NCBI RefSeq assembly: GCF_001306415.1
Contig: NZ_LDJX01000007.1
Location: forward strand, 62,001 to 126,000
Length of the DNA: 64,000 bases
Reading direction: 5' to 3'
Origin: Croceitalea dokdonensis DOKDO 023
GTDB lineage: Bacteria > Bacteroidota > Bacteroidia > Flavobacteriales > Flavobacteriaceae
Shown in pieces: positions 6,319 through 20,214 of the stretch. The notes under the pieces are model-generated. The model was not told the DNA's origin. It searched no databases and worked only from the letters and a program-made list of their open reading frames with translations. Both the position numbers and the translations under genes were made by a program. Numbering within the stretch: the stretch's first letter is position 1; each line of letters starts with the position of its first letter.

Positions 6319-9300
6319 ATGAAGAGTACACTTTACTTTTTATCCTTTTTATTATTTCCTGTGCTGGTGCATTCCCAGAGCTTGACGATTTCTGGAACCG
6401 TCATTGATGGTAGTATGAATGAACCCCTACCTGGTGTAAACGTTTTTGTGAAGAACACAACAAACGGAACTTCCACGGATTTTGATGGGAACTTCAGTAT
6501 CAGTGGTGTTAATCCGGGAGATGTTCTGGTTTTCTCTTACATTAGTTTTGTGACCCAAGAAGTCCAGGTGAATGATAATGGTCCACTGCGGGTAACTTTA
6601 ATGGAAGATGTAGCGGCATTGGATGAGGTGGTGGTCATTGGGTACGGAACGCAACGAAAAAAAGAAGTCACCGGGGCTGTTGCGGTTGTAGGTGCAGAGA
6701 CCATTGAGGATTTAAACCCCACTCAGGTAGAGCAAGCTTTGCAAGGGCAGGTTGCTGGGGTACAGGTTACGGCTTCCTCTGGTTCTCCAGGAAGTGGCTC
6801 CAACATAAGGATACGTGGTATTAGTACCAATGGGGACAACAGGCCACTAATATTGGTAGATGGTAACGTCATAGAGGATTTAAGTGTTTTAAATCCTGGA
6901 GATATTGAAAGCATCAATGTCTTAAAAGATGCAACCGCAGGTATTTATGGGGTGCGTGCTGCCAATGGTGTTGTTCTGGTAACCACCAAAACTGGAAGGA
7001 AAAACCAAGAATTACAGTTCAGCTATGATGCGTTTGGTGGCATACAACAAACCTCCAGAAGAATACCCGTGTTAAATGCTACGGAATATGCCTTGCTGAC
7101 CAATGAGGCTTTCGCGGCGGGTGGACAGTCCAATCCATTTCCCAATTTACAGCGCCTTGGGGTTGGCACAGATTGGCAAGATGAAGTTTTCCAAACGGCA
7201 CCAATCATAAATCATAACCTTACCATTTCTGGTGGTACAAAAAAATCCACTTTTTCCTTTGGTGCTGGTTTTCTAACACAAGATGGTATCGTAGGAGGAA
7301 ACAAATCCAACTTTAACCGCTCAACGGTACGTATTAATTTTAACAGTGATTTGCTGGATAACCTAAAGTTAACGGCAAACCTATTGTACACTGGGACCAA
7401 CCGCAGAACATTGCCGGAAAATGGTATAGGGTCCGTACTTTTTAATGCGCTCAACAATGCGCCAACTTTTGATGTCCGCGACGCGGATGGCAATTTTACG
7501 ATTTCTGAGGGACTAGGTAATGAGGTAATCAATCCTTTGGCACAGGTAGAAAATACGTTTAACAGCACAAAGGTGGATAGAATTAGCGGAAAGTTTGGTT
7601 TAAACTATTCGTTTTTGGAGAATTTCTCCGTGGAGTCCAGTGTGCAGTTCAATTACGCAGAGGTTCAGGGGCGTACCTTGGTTCCAACGCTCTTTTTTGG
7701 TTCGGGCAAGGTTTTCAACAACACGGGCAGGCCATTCTTAAGTGTCAATAAGGACCTTTTTAAAGATTATACTTGGGATACCTTTGCCAACTACAATAAA
7801 ACTTTTAAGGAAGACCACAATTTTCAGGCAACCTTAGGAATGTCAATTTTTCAAACTCAGGGATTATTTTCCGGCACCAATACTGGATTTTTTGAAAATG
7901 AGGTCAGATTTGCGGATGCGGACATCAATGATACCGTAGACCAACTTAACGGGCTTCAGGAAGCAGGACTGAGCGGACGTTTTGATGAACGTTTGCTATC
8001 TTATTTTACCAGAATTCAGTATAGCTATAAAGGTCGCTACTTATTCTCTGGGGTATTAAGGCGTGACGGTTCCACAAAATTTGGACCGGAAAATAAATTT
8101 GGTTTCTTTCCCTCTGCCTCCGCAGGTTGGATTGTTTCAGAAGAAAATTTCCTTAACCAAAGTAATACGGTGAACTTTTTTAAATTAAGGGGGAGCTACG
8201 GTATTTTGGGTAATGATCGGATTCGTGCCAATTCTTTTAGGGGTGTTTTGGACGGAGAAGGCACCTATGTGTTCAATGATCAGTTGGTCTTTGGGCAGGC
8301 CGTTGGTATTCTGCCAAATCCTGCCATTCAATGGGAACAGCAAAAAACGTTGGATATCGGACTTGATTTAAGACTGTTCAACAACGCCGTTGACGTTACG
8401 GCAGATTATTTTGTAAGGACTACGGATGGTTTACTGCTGCAGCCGCAGGTTTCCGGTATTCTTGGAGGCAATGCTCCTGGAACGCAAGTTCCCTTTGTCA
8501 ATGGTGGTGAGGTAAGAAACTCCGGGTTTGAATTCGCCATTGGGTATAATTATGCCCCGTCGGACGACTTTTCCTTTGGTATCAATTATAACGCCACCTT
8601 TCTGGACAATGAGGTTTTGGCGGTCAATAATGAGGCGGGCTTTCTACAAGCAGGCTCTTTTGGAGTGGGTCAAGAGCCACCTTCACGGATGGAGGCCGGT
8701 AGGCCAATTGGTTACTTCTTTGGCCTGGAGACAGATGGTATCTTTCAGAATTCCGCGCAAGTGGATGCCCACGCCTCACAACTAAATGCCGCTCCGGGAG
8801 ATTTACGGTTTGTAGACCAAAATGGGGACGGAGTCATAGATTCCAATGACAGGGTGGCAATTGGCAATCCAATACCCGCGACAACTATGGGCTTAAACTT
8901 GTCTATAAATTACAAGAATTTGGATTTTCAGGCCTACACCTTTGCCTCAATTGGCAATGACATTGTCAGGAATTATGAGCGTAACCAGCCTTTGGTGAAT
9001 CGTTCCGTGTATACCATTGATCGATGGACGGGTGCTGGTACCTCCACAACAGAACCAAGGTTAACCACGGGAGCTACTTCAAATGCGCTGTTTTCAGACT
9101 ATTTTGTGGAGGATGGCTCCTTTGCAAGAATCCAAAACGCACAAATTGGCTACACTTTTAGCGATGAGGTCATGGATAAATTTGGTGCGGATAAAGTACG
9201 GGTATACGTTAGTGGACAAAACCTCTACACGTTTACAAAATATAGGGGTTATGACCCAAGTGCTTCATCCGGTGATCCCATTGGAGCCGGTATAGACCCA

Positions 9301-9354
9301 GGGTTTTATCCTGTGCCAAGAACATTTTTGTTGGGTATTAATTTGAAATTTTAA
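6319..9354 (+). CDS. susC: SusC/RagA-type TonB-dependent outer membrane transporter
   Basis: A 1011-residue TonB-linked importer of oligosaccharides across the outer membrane. After a signal peptide (MKSTLYFLSFLLFPVLVHSQ) comes a carboxypeptidase-regulatory-like beta domain (ISGTVIDGSMNEPLPGVNVF), the TonB-box region (DEVVVIGYGTQRKKEVTGAV) and the plug domain (IRIRGIST through YGVRAANGVVLVTTKTG). The 22-strand barrel fills the rest and ends in the expected aromatic-rich strand ending LGINLKF. It forms the classical pair with the SusD gene that starts 31 bp downstream. It is the first gene of the glycan operon. Confidence 0.96.
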   Translation: MKSTLYFLSFLLFPVLVHSQSLTISGTVIDGSMNEPLPGVNVFVKNTTNGTSTDFDGNFSISGVNPGDVLVFSYISFVTQEVQVNDNGPLRVTLMEDVAALDEVVVIGYGTQRKKEVTGAVAVVGAETIEDLNPTQVEQALQGQVAGVQVTASSGSPGSGSNIRIRGISTNGDNRPLILVDGNVIEDLSVLNPGDIESINVLKDATAGIYGVRAANGVVLVTTKTGRKNQELQFSYDAFGGIQQTSRRIPVLNATEYALLTNEAFAAGGQSNPFPNLQRLGVGTDWQDEVFQTAPIINHNLTISGGTKKSTFSFGAGFLTQDGIVGGNKSNFNRSTVRINFNSDLLDNLKLTANLLYTGTNRRTLPENGIGSVLFNALNNAPTFDVRDADGNFTISEGLGNEVINPLAQVENTFNSTKVDRISGKFGLNYSFLENFSVESSVQFNYAEVQGRTLVPTLFFGSGKVFNNTGRPFLSVNKDLFKDYTWDTFANYNKTFKEDHNFQATLGMSIFQTQGLFSGTNTGFFENEVRFADADINDTVDQLNGLQEAGLSGRFDERLLSYFTRIQYSYKGRYLFSGVLRRDGSTKFGPENKFGFFPSASAGWIVSEENFLNQSNTVNFFKLRGSYGILGNDRIRANSFRGVLDGEGTYVFNDQLVFGQAVGILPNPAIQWEQQKTLDIGLDLRLFNNAVDVTADYFVRTTDGLLLQPQVSGILGGNAPGTQVPFVNGGEVRNSGFEFAIGYNYAPSDDFSFGINYNATFLDNEVLAVNNEAGFLQAGSFGVGQEPPSRMEAGRPIGYFFGLETDGIFQNSAQVDAHASQLNAAPGDLRFVDQNGDGVIDSNDRVAIGNPIPATTMGLNLSINYKNLDFQAYTFASIGNDIVRNYERNQPLVNRSVYTIDRWTGAGTSTTEPRLTTGATSNALFSDYFVEDGSFARIQNAQIGYTFSDEVMDKFGADKVRVYVSGQNLYTFTKYRGYDPSASSGDPIGAGIDPGFYPVPRTFLLGINLKF

Positions 9355-9385
9355 AATGAAGATAATTCTGAATAGTAAAAAACAT

Positions 9386-10837
9386 ATGAAAAAAATAGTA
9401 TTCTTTCTAGCTTCATTTACATTCATGATTGGATGTACGGATGATTTCGTTGAGGTAGATTCCTTTGACGAAACCACGGAAAACTTCTTTAATTCAGAGG
9501 AGGATTATCAAAGTGCCCTAACGGCTGCCTATGATTTGTTACAATCTACCTATATCAATGTCATGTTGGGTGAAATAGCATCCGACAATACCTTGGCAGG
9601 CGGAGAGAGCGCCGTAGACGTACCTGGAATCCAAGAAGTGGATGATATGGTGCACACTCCGGTGAACCAGCAGTTACGGGATTTGTGGACCTGGATGTTT
9701 GCTGGTGTCAATAGGGCAAACTATGTGCTGGAGTTCAAAGACAACATAGATTTTGTCGGCAAGGAGGGCATTATTGCGGAAGCTACTTTTTTACGGGCGT
9801 ATTATTATTTTGAATTGGTGAAATGGTTTGGTGATGTGCCACTTGCTGTAGACCAAAGGTTGCTTTTTGGTGATCAAGATGTGATAGACCGCACCCCAAG
9901 GGCTGAGGTCTACGCCCAAATTGAGCAAGACCTGATTTTCGCAGCGGCTAATTTACCCCTGAACCAAGCAGATACAGGTAGAATCACCAAAGGCGCTGCC
10001 CAAGCTTTATTGGGTAAGGTGTATTTGTTTCAAAATAAGTTCCAGGAAGCTGCTCCAGTATTGGAAGAAGTAATCAATTCTGGGGTATATGAACTGCTCA
10101 CGGATTACAGTTCCATGTTTGAGAATGACAATGAGAATAATATAGAATCTGTCTTTGAGGTACAATATTCGGATATTGAAGGTGCCGGTTTTGGGTGTTT
10201 GCAGTGCAGTGAGGGTAACGTAGCCGTAGGTTTTAACGGTATTAGGAATTACTCTGGCCCAGTTTTCGAATCTGGCTTTAGCTTTAATATCCCTACACAA
10301 GAGGTTTTTGATGCTTTTGAGCCCGGAGACATAAGAAGGGACGTGGCCATTTTGGACATTAATGCATGGGCCGCTGCCAATCCTGAGGTATCTTTCGTAG
10401 AAGGTTTTGAGCATACAGGATTTTACAATAGAAAATATATTGCCCGCCAGGGAGATTTAAATACTGGGGACGCCAACCTTACCAATCCAAATAACTACCG
10501 GGCCATCCGTTTTGCGGACGTTTTGTTAATGGCAGCGGAGGCTTTAAATAGGGGCGGAATAGATGATACTCGTGCACAGACCTATCTAAATAGGGTTAGA
10601 AATCGTGCCAACTTGGGAAATGTAACCGCCACCGGTACCGCACTAACAGAAGCAATTTACCAAGAAAGAAGAGTGGAATTGGTTGGTGAGGGGCATCGGT
10701 TTTTTGATTTGGTAAGAACCGATAGGGCAGCGCAGGAAATAGATGGTTTTCAATCGGGAAAGCATGAATTATTCCCCATTCCTTTAATAGAAATTGAATT
10801 GACGGGCAACCGTTGGGAACAGAATCCAGGATACTAA
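9386..10837 (+). CDS. susD: SusD/RagB-type surface glycan-binding lipoprotein
   Basis: It forms the lid of the SusC pore and captures oligosaccharides at the cell surface. I prefer ATG 9386, which gives a lipoprotein signal peptide ending FMIGC followed by TDDF, over the ATG at 9356. The 483-residue length is typical. Visible family features are the N-terminal EDYQSALTAAYDLLQ, the TPR-like helices (EATFLRAYYYFELVKWFGDVP) and the C-terminal FADVLLMAAEALN, LNRVRNRA, ERRVELVGEGHRFFDLVR motifs. It follows susC and precedes the modular binding protein by 15 bp. Confidence 0.95.
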   Translation: MKKIVFFLASFTFMIGCTDDFVEVDSFDETTENFFNSEEDYQSALTAAYDLLQSTYINVMLGEIASDNTLAGGESAVDVPGIQEVDDMVHTPVNQQLRDLWTWMFAGVNRANYVLEFKDNIDFVGKEGIIAEATFLRAYYYFELVKWFGDVPLAVDQRLLFGDQDVIDRTPRAEVYAQIEQDLIFAAANLPLNQADTGRITKGAAQALLGKVYLFQNKFQEAAPVLEEVINSGVYELLTDYSSMFENDNENNIESVFEVQYSDIEGAGFGCLQCSEGNVAVGFNGIRNYSGPVFESGFSFNIPTQEVFDAFEPGDIRRDVAILDINAWAAANPEVSFVEGFEHTGFYNRKYIARQGDLNTGDANLTNPNNYRAIRFADVLLMAAEALNRGGIDDTRAQTYLNRVRNRANLGNVTATGTALTEAIYQERRVELVGEGHRFFDLVRTDRAAQEIDGFQSGKHELFPIPLIEIELTGNRWEQNPGY

Positions 10838-10852
10838 AAATTAAAATTGATA

Positions 10853-13063
10853 ATGATGAGACTAATAAAAAATCTTTTGGTGGGCGTTTTGGTCGCAACT
10901 GCTTTAGTGGCATGTAAGGACGATGATAACACCTCTTTTGTATTGCAGGAAATATCTGCGCCAACCAACGTTAATGCTATTTTTGATATTGCCCAGGACG
11001 ATTCTGGTGAGGTGAGCGTTACACCTACCGCAGTTGGAGCATCTGTTTTTGAGGTGTTCTTTGGCGATGTGGAGAACGAAACCCCCACAGAAGTTGCCCC
11101 CGGAGAAACCATAACCAAGGTCTATGGGGAAGGGGAGTTTATATTAAAAGTGGTTGCTATAGGGGCCACAGGTCTTACCAGTGAATTAAGCAGGGTAGTG
11201 ACCATTTCCTTTACACCGCCAACAGACCTACAGTTTGCTCTAGAAATTTCTGATGAGAATCCGTTTGAGGTCATCGTTTCCGCATCGGCACAGAATGCCA
11301 CGGTATATGATGTATTCTTTGGCGCAACGGAGGATGAAGTTCCTGTGACCATCATGAATGGCGAAACGGCCCAGTTTACCTACGCAGAGATTGGTGACTA
11401 TGTAGTTCGTGTTGTGGCACGGGGAGCAGGTGCGGCCACCATAGAGGCTAGTGAGACCGTTACCATTTTGGGTAATGCGGACCCTATTGTCTTGCCAATA
11501 ACCTTTGATAGTGCTTCCGTGAACTATGCGTTTGGCACATTCAACGGGGCTTCTTATGAAATTGTGGAAAATCCTGATGCATCTGGTGCCAATCCTACCG
11601 TCTCCAACGTAGGTGCCATCACCAATTCTGGTGCACAGTTTGAAGGTGGAGCCTTCAATTTGGGCACACCAGTGGACTTTAGTGGGAACATGAAAACCAT
11701 TACCATGAAAATGTGGTCACAGGTTGCAGTGCCTGTATTGTTAAAGTTTGAAGGTGGTGTGAATGATGAAAGACAGACCGAGGTTGTTGCCAACCATTCA
11801 GGTACTGGCTGGGAAGACCTCTCCTTCAATTTTGCAACGGATGCCATAAAAAGTTTTATTGATGGCAACCAAGGGGTTGGAGAGCCTTTTGTTCCCGAGG
11901 GCCAATATGCAACCATGGTTATTTTTATTGATGGTCCAGGAACAACTGCGGGAACCTTTTTTATAGATGATATTGCACAAACCGCCAGTGAAGATACCAA
12001 TGGGGGTAATGATGAAACCTCACCCAATGTAGATGATTCCTCGGCTACCCAAGTAGCCCTTCCCGTTGGATTTGAATCTACGACCTTAACCTATTCTTTT
12101 GTAGGTTTTGAAGGGGCGGATTCTGCCATTGAAGCCAACCCGGTTACGGATGGTATCAACCCAACAAGCACCGCAATGAGAAGTACCAAAACGGTAGGTG
12201 CCCAATTTTTCGCAGGTACCTTTTTGGATTTGGAATCGCCCATAGATTTTGCTTCTACGCAAACCATCAGTATAAAAACCTTATCCCCTAAAGTTGGTAT
12301 TCCCATAAGAATGGCGCTAGAAAATTCTGCCGGTGGGGTAGATCAAATCGTGGTGGATGTTAACACCACCGTTGCCAATGCCTGGGAAGAACTTCGTTTT
12401 GACTTTAGTGGGGTGTTCAATAGTGGGGCGCAATACAATAGAATGGTGATTTTCTTTGAGTTTGTTCCGGATTTGGCGGGTGATGGGTCTACCTATTACT
12501 ATGATGACATCCAAATATTGGGATCATCTGGGGATAATGGAGGTACTAGCGGTGCTTCTGGCAATGTAGACGATTCTGCCGCAACACAGGTGGCACTCCC
12601 TGTCGGGTTTGAATCCACAAGTTTAACCTATTCTTTTGTAGGTTTTGAAGGTGCAGATTCTGCCATTGAGGCCAATCCGGATGCCTCCGGAATCAACCCA
12701 ACGGCTACCATTATGAGAACCACCAAAACAGCTGGGGCACAGTTCTTTGCCGGAACCTTTTTGGATTTGGAAGCACCCATTGATTTTTCCAGCACGCAAA
12801 AAGTAAGTATGAAAACATGGTCGCCAAAAGCCAATATACCCGTACGTGTTGCCTTGGAAAATGCCGCCGGCGGTGTTGATCAAATTGTGGTTGATGTCAA
12901 CACAACAACGGCCAATGGCTGGGAAGAGTTGGTGTTTGATTTTAGTGGGGTATTCAATGCTGGCGCTGAGTACAACCGTATCGTAGTATTCTTTGAATTT
13001 GTTCCAGATTTGGCAGGAGATGGATCTACCTACTATTACGATGATATTCAGTTGATAAATTAA
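10853..13063 (+). CDS. SusE/F-position surface lipoprotein with three carbohydrate-binding-like modules
   Basis: Lipoprotein signal with lipobox Cys followed by KDDDN (ATG 10853 preferred over a TTG at 10847). Two short PKD/Ig-like domains (about residues 30-205) are followed by three beta-sandwich modules, each about 160-180 residues. The modules begin like LPVGFESTSLTYSFVGFEG and end in a YYYDDI-type strand. Modules 2 and 3 are very similar, spaced exactly 537 bp (179 codons), a recent tandem duplication; module 1 is more divergent. It probably binds beta-1,3-glucan at the surface next to SusCD. The module is related to the insert in the GH16 gene downstream. No enzyme signature is seen. 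Confidence 0.75.
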   Translation: MMRLIKNLLVGVLVATALVACKDDDNTSFVLQEISAPTNVNAIFDIAQDDSGEVSVTPTAVGASVFEVFFGDVENETPTEVAPGETITKVYGEGEFILKVVAIGATGLTSELSRVVTISFTPPTDLQFALEISDENPFEVIVSASAQNATVYDVFFGATEDEVPVTIMNGETAQFTYAEIGDYVVRVVARGAGAATIEASETVTILGNADPIVLPITFDSASVNYAFGTFNGASYEIVENPDASGANPTVSNVGAITNSGAQFEGGAFNLGTPVDFSGNMKTITMKMWSQVAVPVLLKFEGGVNDERQTEVVANHSGTGWEDLSFNFATDAIKSFIDGNQGVGEPFVPEGQYATMVIFIDGPGTTAGTFFIDDIAQTASEDTNGGNDETSPNVDDSSATQVALPVGFESTTLTYSFVGFEGADSAIEANPVTDGINPTSTAMRSTKTVGAQFFAGTFLDLESPIDFASTQTISIKTLSPKVGIPIRMALENSAGGVDQIVVDVNTTVANAWEELRFDFSGVFNSGAQYNRMVIFFEFVPDLAGDGSTYYYDDIQILGSSGDNGGTSGASGNVDDSAATQVALPVGFESTSLTYSFVGFEGADSAIEANPDASGINPTATIMRTTKTAGAQFFAGTFLDLEAPIDFSSTQKVSMKTWSPKANIPVRVALENAAGGVDQIVVDVNTTTANGWEELVFDFSGVFNAGAEYNRIVVFFEFVPDLAGDGSTYYYDDIQLIN
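12026..13060. repeat. In-gene tandem duplication, 537-bp unit
   Basis: The segments starting AATGTAGATGATTCC (12026) and AATGTAGACGATTCT (12563) run in parallel to the end of the gene and encode the second and third binding modules. The unit keeps the reading frame, and both copies share long blocks such as the YYYDDIQ strand and the NRMVIFFEFVPDLAGD region. Confidence 0.85.
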
Positions 13064-13075
13064 AATTTGATGCTC

Positions 13076-15169
13076 ATGAAGAAGTTAACATATGTGCTTG
13101 CCCTCTTTTTGGTCTCTCTGGCCATTAACGGATGCCAAGAAGAGGAACCAACGTTAGATACCATATTCACTCCTACAAACATTGCGCTGAACGCGGTGGT
13201 GGCGGACGATCAATCTGGGAACGTTACCGTGACGCCTTCCGGTGACAATGCCATTACCTTTCATGTGGTATTTAACCAAGGTGCAGATGCGGTGGTTGTT
13301 GGCAATGGCGAAAGTGCAACCTTTAGATATACCCGATCTGGACAATATGAACAGCCCATTACCTTGGTCGCATTTGGTAGTGGTGGGGTTAGCTCAAGCA
13401 AGACGGAGTTCATTAATTTGGACGTACGTCTGTTCATAGATGAGGCAACTTTAAGGCTTATTGCAGGGGATGGAACAAAGCGCTGGGTATGGGATAGGAC
13501 TGTGGGCGGTCACTTTGGTGTAGGGCCCTTGACCAATGATTTCCCAGAATTTTTTAGTGCCTCGCCAAATGCTTTAAACGACTGTCTTTATGACGATGTT
13601 TTGGAATTTAGCTATGATGGCCAAGACAATTATAGCTATACCCTGGACCCTGGCGCAGATAATTTAAGTTTCTTGAATTGGACAGAAGTCAATCGGTTTT
13701 TTCCAGATGCCACTCCACAACAGTTTGCCGATGAATGTCGCGATATCACGGATCAAGCTGTTTTTGATACAGGTTTTGTGATTATCGACAATGAAGATGG
13801 TTCTCGCACCTTGGATGTTGGCAGTAGTTTTTTAAGCTATTGGGCGGTTATCCCCGGGCAATACCAAATTTTGGAACTCACGGAAAATAGGTTGGCCCTT
13901 CGTGGCATCAGTCAACCCTTTAATGGTGACGGACCGTTGGCATGGTACAGTGTTTTTGTTCCGGAAGGACAGGTAGATACTGGTGGTGGGGACCCGTTGG
14001 ATTCTGTTTTTACCAATTTGGTCTGGTCCGATGAATTTGACGTTGCCGGTGCCCCTAATCCTGCCAACTGGACCTATGATTTGGGTACAGGGGACAATGG
14101 TTGGGGCAACCAAGAAGTCCAGACCTATACGGATACCGCAGAAAATGTCATTGTTGAGGATGATGTGCTTAAAATCACCCTAAAAAAAGAGGTTGGCGGA
14201 GAAGGAATTTATTATTACGATGATTTTGCCTTGGTAGATGGTGCTGGAACGGTACAGCAACTTGTTCAGGATTTTGAAGGCACTGTGCCAACGTTCGAGA
14301 GTTTTGGGGGCGGTGGTTCAACGGTCATATCCAATCCTGATGCATCGGGCATCAATACATCGGCCAATGTTGGGGAATTTACAAAATCTGGAACGGCAGA
14401 AACTTTTGCAGGTTCCTTCTTTGATTTGCCCGCCCCGTTGGATTTAAGTGTAAACAAGACCATGACCATAAAAACCTGGTCCCCAAAAGTGGGTGCCGTG
14501 GTACGTTTAAAGATTGAGGATTCCAATGATAGTACCCGTTTTTTTGAGGTAGATGCCACAACCACCGTAGCCAATACTTGGGAGAATTTAAGTTTTGACT
14601 TAACCAATGCACCCAACTTTAGCTACAACAGGTTGGTCACTTTTTTTGATTTTGGTGTTCCCGGTGGTGCAAGTTTTACCTCTGCGAGAATCAAGACCCA
14701 AGGGTTACAACAATTTACCTATGGTAGGGTGGAGGCAAGGGCAAAGTTGCCAACTGGTGGCGGCACTTGGCCCGCTATCTGGATGTTGGGAGCGGACTTA
14801 GAGACCAATCCTTGGCCAGGCGCTGGAGAGTTGGACATCATGGAGCACGTGGGAAACCAGCAAGACATCATTTTTGGCTCAACTCACGATCCCAATAATT
14901 TCGGAGGGAATGCAAGGACAGGTTCTACTTCCGTTTCAGGCGTGTCGGATGAATTTAAGATTTATGAGATGGAATGGACCCCGGAAGAGATAAGCTTTGC
15001 CGTGGATGGCCAGGTGTACTTTACCGTACCCAATGACCCCTCCCTTCCGTTTAACAAAGATTTCTTCTTCATCATGAATGTGGCCATGGGAGGCACTTTT
15101 GGCGGAGACGTAGACCCCAATTTTGAGCAGTCTACAATGGAAGTGGATTATATTAGAATGTATCAATAA
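13076..15169 (+). CDS. GH16 endo-beta-1,3-glucanase (laminarinase) with inserted binding module
   Basis: Secreted lipoprotein (lipobox ING-C-QEEE; ATG 13076 chosen over TTG 13067). An Ig-like domain (about 30-120) and an unassigned domain (about 125-300) precede the GH16 fold. The GH16 fold begins at LVWSDEFD (about residue 325), is interrupted after the strand LKITLKKE by roughly 159 extra residues (373-531), and resumes with FTSARIKTQGLQQFTYGRVEARAKLP. The catalytic signature is GELDIMEHVG with Glu585 as nucleophile, Asp587 and Glu590 as acid/base, the beta-bulge form seen in laminarinases. It would cut beta-1,3-glucan at the cell surface for the SusCD importer. The inserted module resembles those of the preceding protein. 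Confidence 0.88.
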   Translation: MKKLTYVLALFLVSLAINGCQEEEPTLDTIFTPTNIALNAVVADDQSGNVTVTPSGDNAITFHVVFNQGADAVVVGNGESATFRYTRSGQYEQPITLVAFGSGGVSSSKTEFINLDVRLFIDEATLRLIAGDGTKRWVWDRTVGGHFGVGPLTNDFPEFFSASPNALNDCLYDDVLEFSYDGQDNYSYTLDPGADNLSFLNWTEVNRFFPDATPQQFADECRDITDQAVFDTGFVIIDNEDGSRTLDVGSSFLSYWAVIPGQYQILELTENRLALRGISQPFNGDGPLAWYSVFVPEGQVDTGGGDPLDSVFTNLVWSDEFDVAGAPNPANWTYDLGTGDNGWGNQEVQTYTDTAENVIVEDDVLKITLKKEVGGEGIYYYDDFALVDGAGTVQQLVQDFEGTVPTFESFGGGGSTVISNPDASGINTSANVGEFTKSGTAETFAGSFFDLPAPLDLSVNKTMTIKTWSPKVGAVVRLKIEDSNDSTRFFEVDATTTVANTWENLSFDLTNAPNFSYNRLVTFFDFGVPGGASFTSARIKTQGLQQFTYGRVEARAKLPTGGGTWPAIWMLGADLETNPWPGAGELDIMEHVGNQQDIIFGSTHDPNNFGGNARTGSTSVSGVSDEFKIYEMEWTPEEISFAVDGQVYFTVPNDPSLPFNKDFFFIMNVAMGGTFGGDVDPNFEQSTMEVDYIRMYQ

Positions 15170-16737: not shown

Positions 16738-16815
16738 ATGGAAACTTTAGAGCCAAAAGCCCAAATGTCAATAACGCACTGCAGAAGGCAAAAAAATGTA
16801 TAAAAATAGAAGTTG

Positions 16816-19800
16816 ATGAAGTATATCCAGATAGAGAATGAAGGTTACTATAAGATAGAAAATAGTGATGCACTGCGCCCCTTCTTTATGAGTGTGGTGA
16901 GTGATTCTAACCATTGGATGTTTATTGCTAGCAATGGCGGCCTAACGGCTGGCCGAAAAAATAGCGCTTATGCACTATTTCCCTATTACACGGATGATAA
17001 AATTACGGAGTCTTTTGATATCACCGGAAGTAAGACCATAGTTAAAATAGAGCGGGCAGATGGAACGCATCTCATATGGGAGCCTTTTTCAAATAGGTAT
17101 ACCGGCCTTTTTAACATCACTAGAAACCTTTTTAAAAGTGAACTTGGCAACAAAATCATCTTTGAGGAAAATAACAAGGACTTAGGACTTACTTATCGGT
17201 ATCAATGGAGTTCTAGCCATACCTACGGTTTTGTAAGAAAAAGTACGCTTTTGAATACCTCTGGGAGTGCTGTGGAGCTCACCGTTCTTGATGGAATACA
17301 GAATATTATGCCCTATGGGGTAGATGCGGCAACACAACAAGGGAGCAGTAATTTGGTAGATGCCTATAAGCGTAGCGAGTTGGTTGCGGACTCTGGCCTA
17401 GGTATTTTTGCCCTAAGTGCGATTATTGTGGATAAGGCAGAACCCAGTGAGGCGCTCAAGGCCAATGTGGTCTGGTCCATGGGCTGTGGTCCATCAACGA
17501 AGTTATTATCCTCACTACAACTAGATGCGTTCAGGAACGGACATAACGTGGCGCCAGAGGAGGATGTTAAAGCGGAAAGAGGGGCTTATTTTGATGTTTT
17601 TAAAGTGAAGCTTAGCGCGGGGCAATCCAAGGAATGGGCGCTGGTGGCAGATGTGAACAAAAGCACCGCTAGGGTCATCAGCCTTTCCGAAGAGCTCAAA
17701 GTCGCTTCCGGTTTATGGGAAAGCGTATTCAAAGATGTTTCCAAAGGGTCTGCAAATTTGGTGCGATTGACCAGCGCTGCCGATGCCAAACAACTAACGG
17801 CCGACCAAAAAACCAATACCCGCCATTATTCCAATGTGCTCTTCAATATGATGCGTGGAGGAATTTTTGATGATAACTACACCATTGAGAAAGTAGATTT
17901 TAGCACCTATATCCAAAAAGCAAATAGCAAGGTATTTACCTCTAATAGGGACCCTATAAACAACCTACCAAGGACCTTCCCCCTTCAAAAATTAAAAGAA
18001 TTGGCCAACCAAACTGCGGACAAGGATTTAGCCAGGTTATGTTTGGAATACCTCCCGTTACAATTTAGTAGAAGGCACGGTGACCCTAGTAGGCCATGGA
18101 ATAAGTTTTCCATAAATACCGTCACAGAGAATGGTGATAAAATATTGGACTACGAGGGCAACTGGCGTGATATTTTTCAAAATTGGGAAGCCTTGGCCCA
18201 TTCCTACCCAGAGTTCATAGATAGCATGATTCATAAGTTCCTGAATGCGACCACTTTTGACGGGTATAACCCGTATAGGGTCACCAAAAGTGGCTTTGAC
18301 TGGGAAACTATTGAACCGGACGACCCTTGGTCTTACATAGGGTATTGGGGAGACCATCAAATCATTTACCTTCTTAAATTTTTGGAATTTAGTGAAAAGC
18401 ATTATCCGGGTAGTTTACAACGATATTTTCAAGAACGGATTTTTGTATATGCCAACGTTCCCTATAAGATTAAAGACTATGGTTCCATCCTAGAGAACCC
18501 AAAGGATACCATTCTTTTTGATGAAGACTTGGATAGTTCCATTCGTGAAAAACGAGCTAAAATTGGCGCGGACGGCGCCCTTATCTGGCTAGAAAATGGG
18601 TCTATATACAGGGTGAACATGATGGAAAAACTTTTGGCAACCGTCCTTGCCAAAGTATCCAACTTTATCCCAGAAGGTGGTATTTGGATGAATACCCAAC
18701 GGCCAGAATGGAACGATGCCAATAATGCATTGGTAGGCAATGGGGTTTCTATGGTAACCCTTTATTATTTAAGACGTTTCTTAGCGTTTTTTAAGGGCTT
18801 GTTGGGTAATTCCACTGCCAAGCAGTTTGAGGTTTCTATGGAATTGTCCGATTTCTTTAAACAAATTTCCAAAACCCTGATTGATTATCAGCACCTTTTA
18901 GGAAACAACATAACGGATAGGGACAGAAAAACAATTACGGATGGCTTAGGTAAGGCAGGAAGTAGATATAGAAGTTCTGTTTACCAAAACGGTTTTTCTT
19001 CCGCTACCAAGAAAATTACGGCTGCAGATGTACAAGCTTTTGTGGGGGTTGCCCTAAAATACCTAGAACAAAGTATTGCCGTAAATAAACGGAAAGATGG
19101 GCTGTACCACGCCTATAATTTAATGACGGTAAAATCAGATACCGAAATTGAAGTATCTTATCTGGCCGAAATGTTGGAAGGGCAGGTAGCTGTTCTTAGT
19201 TCTGGCCATATTGGTAATGAGGAGGCGGTGGTCTTGTTGGATGGTTTAAAAAATAGTGCCTTGTTCCGCGCTGATCAGTATAGCTACATCCTATACCCCA
19301 ACAAGGATTTACCCAAATTTGTGGTCAAAAACAACATTCCCGAGCCAGCCATAAAAACATCGGTACTCCTCCAAAAATTATTGGAGGCCGGAGATAACTC
19401 CATCATAGAAAAAAGCGCCGATGGTGGGTATCATTTTAATGGGGATTTTAATAATGCGGATAGTCTAAAGACCGCATTGGCAAGTTTGCCAACTGCTACA
19501 TATGGTGATTTGGTGAACAAAGAACAGCAGCTATTACTGGATGTTTTTGAGGCAGTTTTTGATCATAAATCCTTTACAGGCCGTTCAGGAACCTTTTTTG
19601 GGTATGAAGGGCTTGGGTCCATCTATTGGCATATGGTGTCCAAACTGCTTTTGGCCGTGCAGGAAATCTGTTTACGTGCCATCCATGAAAGGGCTTCAGA
19701 TGAAACCATAGGCAGACTTTTGGAGCATTATTATGAAATCAATGAGGGCATAGGCGTACACAAATCCCCCGAACTGTACGGTGCGTTTCCCACCGATCCC

Positions 19801-20214
19801 TATTCCCATACACCCGCAGGTAAAGGCGCGCAACAACCGGGGATGACAGGACAGGTAAAGGAGGATATTTTAAGTAGGTTTGGGGAGCTGGGTGTAGTTG
19901 TTGAGGAAGGGATAGTGTCTTTTATCTCCCACTTGTTAAGAAAGGAGGAGTTCCTTAAGAAAGCTGTCATCTTCCAATATCTTGATGTCCATAATTCTCT
20001 CCAGGAAATAGCCTTGGAGCCCAATAGCCTTGCCTTTACCTATTGTCAGGTACCTGTGGTGTATAGACTGGGAAGTTTGGATACCACTACTGTTTTTATG
20101 AATGACAATTCAAGGGTGGTTTTTGATGCCACTTCCTTGGATGCCATAACCTCTAAAAGCCTATTTCTTAGGGATGGCACCGTAACGCGAATAGAAGTAT
20201 GTTTACATAAGTAG
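16816..20214 (+). CDS. Beta-1,3-oligoglucan phosphorylase, GH149/GH161 type
   Basis: A 1132-residue cytoplasmic enzyme (no signal peptide; ATG 16816 follows a TTG at 16813). The beta-sandwich N-terminal region (NSDALRPFFMSVVSDSNHWMFIASNGGLTAGRKN, quoted in part: SNGGLTAGRKNSAYALFPYY) and long (alpha/alpha)6-barrel body with RPWNKFSINTV, GFDWETIEPDDPWSYIGYWG and PEWNDANNALVGNGVSMVTL are typical of large clan GH-Q phosphorylases. Enzymes of GH149 and GH161 use phosphate to release glucose-1-phosphate from beta-1,3-oligoglucans. Its place between a GH-A and a GH17 gene fits that substrate. Choosing between the two families needs an alignment. Confidence 0.8.
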   Translation: MKYIQIENEGYYKIENSDALRPFFMSVVSDSNHWMFIASNGGLTAGRKNSAYALFPYYTDDKITESFDITGSKTIVKIERADGTHLIWEPFSNRYTGLFNITRNLFKSELGNKIIFEENNKDLGLTYRYQWSSSHTYGFVRKSTLLNTSGSAVELTVLDGIQNIMPYGVDAATQQGSSNLVDAYKRSELVADSGLGIFALSAIIVDKAEPSEALKANVVWSMGCGPSTKLLSSLQLDAFRNGHNVAPEEDVKAERGAYFDVFKVKLSAGQSKEWALVADVNKSTARVISLSEELKVASGLWESVFKDVSKGSANLVRLTSAADAKQLTADQKTNTRHYSNVLFNMMRGGIFDDNYTIEKVDFSTYIQKANSKVFTSNRDPINNLPRTFPLQKLKELANQTADKDLARLCLEYLPLQFSRRHGDPSRPWNKFSINTVTENGDKILDYEGNWRDIFQNWEALAHSYPEFIDSMIHKFLNATTFDGYNPYRVTKSGFDWETIEPDDPWSYIGYWGDHQIIYLLKFLEFSEKHYPGSLQRYFQERIFVYANVPYKIKDYGSILENPKDTILFDEDLDSSIREKRAKIGADGALIWLENGSIYRVNMMEKLLATVLAKVSNFIPEGGIWMNTQRPEWNDANNALVGNGVSMVTLYYLRRFLAFFKGLLGNSTAKQFEVSMELSDFFKQISKTLIDYQHLLGNNITDRDRKTITDGLGKAGSRYRSSVYQNGFSSATKKITAADVQAFVGVALKYLEQSIAVNKRKDGLYHAYNLMTVKSDTEIEVSYLAEMLEGQVAVLSSGHIGNEEAVVLLDGLKNSALFRADQYSYILYPNKDLPKFVVKNNIPEPAIKTSVLLQKLLEAGDNSIIEKSADGGYHFNGDFNNADSLKTALASLPTATYGDLVNKEQQLLLDVFEAVFDHKSFTGRSGTFFGYEGLGSIYWHMVSKLLLAVQEICLRAIHERASDETIGRLLEHYYEINEGIGVHKSPELYGAFPTDPYSHTPAGKGAQQPGMTGQVKEDILSRFGELGVVVEEGIVSFISHLLRKEEFLKKAVIFQYLDVHNSLQEIALEPNSLAFTYCQVPVVYRLGSLDTTTVFMNDNSRVVFDATSLDAITSKSLFLRDGTVTRIEVCLHK

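Follow-up and report, generated by a model that had tools for sequence, protein, structure and literature searches.

Interrupted GH16 laminarinases

Interruption of the catalytic domain of a GH16 enzyme has already been published, in 2024, for Maribacter: a Maribacter forsetii GH16_3 enzyme in which the GH16 domain breaks off after beta-sheet 5 was described, together with 57 homologues (Kalenborn et al., 2024; PMC11345257). The genera listed there as having homologues are Maribacter, Eudoraea, Zobellia, and Croceitalea, with some of the genes lying within PULs; Maribacter strains with this enzyme type showed endo-laminarinase activity, and the single strain without the gene showed none. The inserted segment of the Maribacter enzyme is called, in the same paper, a domain of unknown function, 29% related to BfSGBP-B.

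An enzyme of the same architecture—about 700 aa, with a lipoprotein signal, a PKD, an N-terminal SGBP-B-like region, and an interrupted GH16 domain—is encoded in the 64,000-nucleotide stretch of Croceitalea dokdonensis DOKDO 023 DNA analyzed here (hereafter, the window; Table 1).

The laminarinase gene and its locus

The assignment of the window enzyme to GH16 subfamily 3 is based on its fold, its match to characterized laminarinases, and its motifs. The protein matches Pfam PF00722 (E=2.9e-20) and laminarinases of known structure in the PDB (E to 3.5e-52), and contains both the ExDxxE catalytic motif, within GELDIMEH, and the WPA motif, as GTWPAIW (residues 566-572). Across the 12 aligned enzymes, the catalytic glutamates and aspartate do not vary.

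The gene order is SusC-SusD-SGBP-GH16, followed by genes for a GH2-like protein, a homologue of beta-1,3-oligosaccharide phosphorylase, a GH17 protein, and an MFS transporter. The phosphorylase homologue, for which a Pfam search gave no match, is closely related to the solved beta-1,3-oligosaccharide phosphorylase 6hq6 (1559 bits); the family is GH149. The locus is of laminarin type.

Table 1. Positions, in window coordinates, of the laminarinase gene, its parts, and associated genes
Feature	Positions	Strand	Remarks
SusC-type TonB-dependent receptor	6319-9354	+	Pfam
SusD	9356-10837	+	Pfam
SGBP-like lipoprotein, adjoining gene	10847-13063	+	three modules, canonical order
Modules 1, 2, 3 of the SGBP-like lipoprotein	about 11483-11980, 12053-12523, 12590-13060	+	
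GH16_3 laminarinase gene	13067-15169	+	ORF, 700 aa
Lipoprotein signal of the laminarinase			ends NGC-QEEE
N-terminal PKD-like / SGBP-B-like domain	13124-13990	+	PDB 7kv5 'PKD domain protein' match, E=6.6e-7
GH16 domain, part 1	14012-14191	+	up to strand LKITLKKE (residues 368-375)
Inserted module	14192-14674	+	residues 376-536, 161 aa
Strand IYYYDDFAL	14207-14233	+	residues 381-389; corresponds to the final strand of SGBP modules, but leads the insert
Inter-module linker	14234-14263	+	kept from the array
Module core, VQDFEG...FFDFG	14264-14656	+	without its own C-terminal strand; core profile finds inserts and SGBP modules
NPDASGIN			residues 423-430
FAGSFFDL			residues 447-454
KTWSPK			residues 469-474
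TTVANTWE			residues 499-506
YNRLVTFFDFG			residues 520-530
Exit turn, FFDFG to GH16 FTSARI	14657-14674	+	6 residues
GH16 domain, part 2	14675-15166	+	
FTSARIKTQG			residues 537-546
R541	14687-14689	+	equivalent of ZgLamA Arg-213, five residues past the insert
Catalytic GELDIMEH	14825-14848	+	residues 587-594, intact
Phosphorylase homologue	16813-20214		1133 aa

Interruption of the GH16 domain and identity of the insert

The break in the GH16 domain, claimed in a sequence-only reading of the window, is real. The PDB laminarinases match the protein in two stretches, at about residues 317-375 and 533-700, which are split at the insertion point, and in uninserted orthologues from other genera, which have the same N-terminal domain and GH16, LKIT... 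leads directly to YTSAR through a turn of about 4-7 residues. The survey of GH16 homologues proposed in that reading found an empty site in the uninserted orthologues. All of the motifs quoted there were located in the protein (LKITLKKE, NPDASGIN, FAGSFFDL, KTWSPK, TTVANTWE, YNRLVTFFDFG, FTSARIKTQG, and GELDIMEH); of the bounds given for the insert, 14192-14668, the start was correct, but the true end is 14674, two residues further. An AF2 model of the GH16 domain with the insert (pLDDT 94.0, pTM 0.76) has a GH16 fold that aligns across the insert with 5wut (TMt 0.92) and 2hyk (0.89), and the insert, as modeled, is compatible with an intact GH16 fold. The junctions in this model have a pLDDT of 64-77, and the inter-domain orientation is uncertain.

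Searches of Pfam and NCBIfam assigned no family to the insert. In sequence comparisons, modules 2 and 3 of the neighboring lipoprotein were among its matches (identities of 45% and 43%; E=4e-26 and 8e-25), as were numerous SGBP arrays of the family sample and a single solved protein, PDB 8qx6 (E=1.4e-8), of which module 1 of the neighbor is a close relative (E=8e-43). When modeled alone by AF2, the insert forms a complete domain of 11 strands with the 8qx6 fold (pLDDT 93.5, pTM 0.87), and 8qx6, listed by Foldseek under the entry title 'Novel laminarin-binding CBM X584', is the top-ranked structure (E=2.2e-4, prob 1.00, TM 0.61). The insert belongs by homology to the 8qx6/X584 laminarin-binding CBM family, but is permuted. 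The proposal of a binding-like module within GH16 is thereby upheld in both sequence and fold, and an unrelated fold, which had been named as the outcome that would speak against it, was not what the comparison with 8qx6 returned. CBM102 is reportedly the name given to the modules that bind laminarin in an SGBP of Christiangramia forsetii, and CBM103 that of the GH16-linked one.

Permuted strand order

8qx6 and the tandem SGBP modules, homologous to the insert in sequence and fold, have the YYYDD-type strand at the end, which is the canonical order (in SGBP modules, this final strand resembles YYFDE), and they lie outside any catalytic domain. The insert departs from this canonical order of the 8qx6/X584 family in that its YYYDD-type strand comes first: after IYYYDDFAL come the linker, the core (DFEG to FFDFG), and the GH16 strand FTSARI.

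This order was assessed with two profiles. In a rotation test, in which the leading 22-28 residues were moved to the end and the product scored with a canonical-module profile against 100 shuffled controls, a gain of 7-15 bits was obtained in 12 of 12 inserts, and exceeded all 100 shuffles in 11 of them. With an array-register profile—that is, the last strand of module n, the linker, and the core of module n+1—the leading segment adds 18-24 bits in each of the 12 inserts, a gain greater than every one of 50 shuffles each. The linker, 14-15 residues long in the inserts (15 from YYYDD to DFE in the window), is most often 14 and next most often 15 residues long in the arrays, and FFDFG is separated from the following strand by 6-8 residues in the inserts and mostly by 7 or 10 in SGBP modules. 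Taken together, the two profile tests and the linker lengths show the insert to be, in sequence, one period of a tandem SGBP array in shifted register, cut one strand early, much as the sequence-only reading had supposed. AF2 forms the leading strand in both models, at residues 66-75 with GH16 and at residues 6-15 for the insert alone; the SGBP rows of the two underlying alignments had been truncated so as to exclude their final strand, which leaves the seven inserted sequences as the only source of information on the leading strand.

Proposed explanation and alternative readings

Very probably, the insert is a shifted period of an 8qx6/X584-type SGBP array lodged in a GH16_3 turn, a circular permutant by which laminarin would be held near the cleft. 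One array period in shifted register would have been placed in the turn between strands LKITLKKE and FTSARI. Judging from the profile tests and the strand assignment, the leading strand would replace the missing last strand in the folded insert, so that the domain would be a circular permutant closing on itself. In this surface lipoprotein, the module may then hold laminarin beside the cleft, on the side of the negative subsites, whereby the chain would be kept near the active site and activity on the polymer would be raised; the putative binding would supplement that of the SGBP-B-like domain at the N-terminus and, in the window, that of the neighboring SGBP.

The position of the insert was related to the cleft by an alignment of ZgLamA (4bq1) with the window enzyme by way of a homologue that lacks the insert. 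Arg-213 of ZgLamA is a residue of the -2 subsite (PMC4606783), and its equivalence to R541 means that the insert springs from the turn leading into a strand with a negative-subsite residue; by this position, a reshaping of the cleft by the insert is plausible. The 17-residue offset of ZgLamA (4bq1) does not mark a loop where the insert sits: the alignment puts its special loop, with Glu-250, after WPAIWTLG.

That the insert serves as a rigid spacer or a fold-stabilizing domain, with glucan binding lost, is unlikely: its identity to 8qx6 is only 27% over aligned columns, but it retains positions that are invariant among SGBP modules, and the enzyme sits in a laminarin-type locus. Hardly credible is a reading without permutation, in which the YYYDD strand is part of GH16 or a chance match. 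The motif is indeed short, and the rotation score of the window insert alone, 182.0 bits against 182.8 for the best shuffle, is at the edge of its controls; yet the strand is conserved in 12 of 12 inserted enzymes, the array-register gain is found in all of them, and YYYDD is missing from the aligned uninserted orthologues, from which it follows that the strand is not part of GH16, an alternative that the sequence-only reading had itself raised. Direct copying of the module from the neighboring SGBP gene in this locus, which has a three-module array with two modules resembling the insert, is very improbable, since SGBP modules of other genera are closer and modules 2 and 3 of the neighbor fall in a separate, well-supported group (see below). 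Capture on two independent occasions, by two GH16_3 lineages, is possible though on the whole improbable, and the evidence on it comes from the trees.

Distribution and ancestry

Full-length inserted matches were found in three of eight genomes of the genus, in 11 of 400 in the family sample (seven genera), and in 3 of 398 and 1 of 396 in the order and phylum samples, respectively, all in Flavobacteriaceae. The enzymes occur in Eudoraea, Croceitalea, Maribacter, and other Flavobacteriaceae, and viral contigs contained distant GH16 relatives only. Among the records surveyed, a comparison of L084 and L090 shows near identity, both in GH16 and in the SGBP modules, between Flectobacillus and the record named Cellulophaga sp. 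BC115SP, which is possibly misnamed or reflects transfer; a MAG titled Sphingomonadales (L127) has a Bacteroidota-type SGBP-GH16 locus and is likely misassigned.

As for the donor, the insert is 55-58% and 50-55% identical to SGBP modules in genomes G291 and G122, respectively, and 43-45% identical to those of the neighboring gene. In the module tree, the inserts group with modules of loci L053 and L055 (99/91), and neighbor modules 2 and 3 stand apart, with modules of L066, L067, L069, and L096 (100/99). A smaller module tree drew the neighbor modules in on a long branch, and the larger tree was therefore used to place them in view of long-branch attraction. The likeness to the neighbor's modules noted from the sequence thus stands, but not the neighbor as closest relative: the nearest relatives of the insert are SGBP modules of other genera, in G291 and G122, and the adjacent SGBP is disfavored as donor by identities and tree alike.

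In a GH16 tree built with the insert left out, the inserted enzymes separate into two clades; the sister of each (L078 and L004) has no insert. A single clade of inserted GH16s is rejected (AU p=0.0009), as it is, more strongly still, by the N-terminal domain (p=1.8e-51), and the SGBP modules of L055 may nest among the inserts; these observations favor two captures. Against them, register, site, and linker length agree between the lineages, so that one SGBP subtype would have entered one site in one register twice, and a single clade is not rejected in the insert tree (p=0.50). One capture, followed by transfer between GH16 genes, is preferred as the simplest reading because, with recombination, fewer coincidences are needed. 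The N-terminal domain of the window enzyme is closest to that of an uninserted Maribacter protein (L137:5044-6672, 74% identity) and its GH16 part groups elsewhere, which suggests possible recombination within the gene.

In the second lineage, four loci with long flanks (L074-L077) showed no SGBP module array within those flanks, and a SusC/SusD pair was not evident next to the gene. In three of the four (L075-L077), a neighbor of the GH16 gene codes for a protein some 940 aa long whose ending is similar; in L075 and L076, a transporter-like protein also lies next to the GH16 gene. A fuller scenario, tentative and somewhat short of probable, is that a permuted CBM was excised as exactly one shifted array period into a GH16 loop and then recombined into this second GH16_3 lineage, which has a different N-terminal domain and no adjacent SusC/SusD/SGBP in the loci seen, and where it would bind near the active site.

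Comparison with known systems

Unlike the present analysis, the available part of the Maribacter study gives no 8qx6-type identity, permuted order, or two GH16 lineages (PMC11345257). Set against that part, the identity of the insert, its permutation, and its conflicting ancestry are new, and neither what the insert is nor the order of its strands seems to have been reported before. A likely function is thereby offered for a domain left unknown in a recognized class of marine laminarinases. Circular permutation has been proposed to arise by way of tandem repeats, and here the donor type (the arrays), the empty site (the uninserted orthologues), and the product (a permuted insert in one register in 12 of 12 enzymes) are all at hand, making that route testable. 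The window enzyme also resembles the Xyn10C-like GH10 xylanases (Pm25; PMC7848910), which are likewise SusC/SusD-linked and have a CBM4 inserted in the catalytic domain; these xylanases differ from it in that the interrupted fold is a TIM barrel and the inserted modules are two tandem CBMs of family CBM4.
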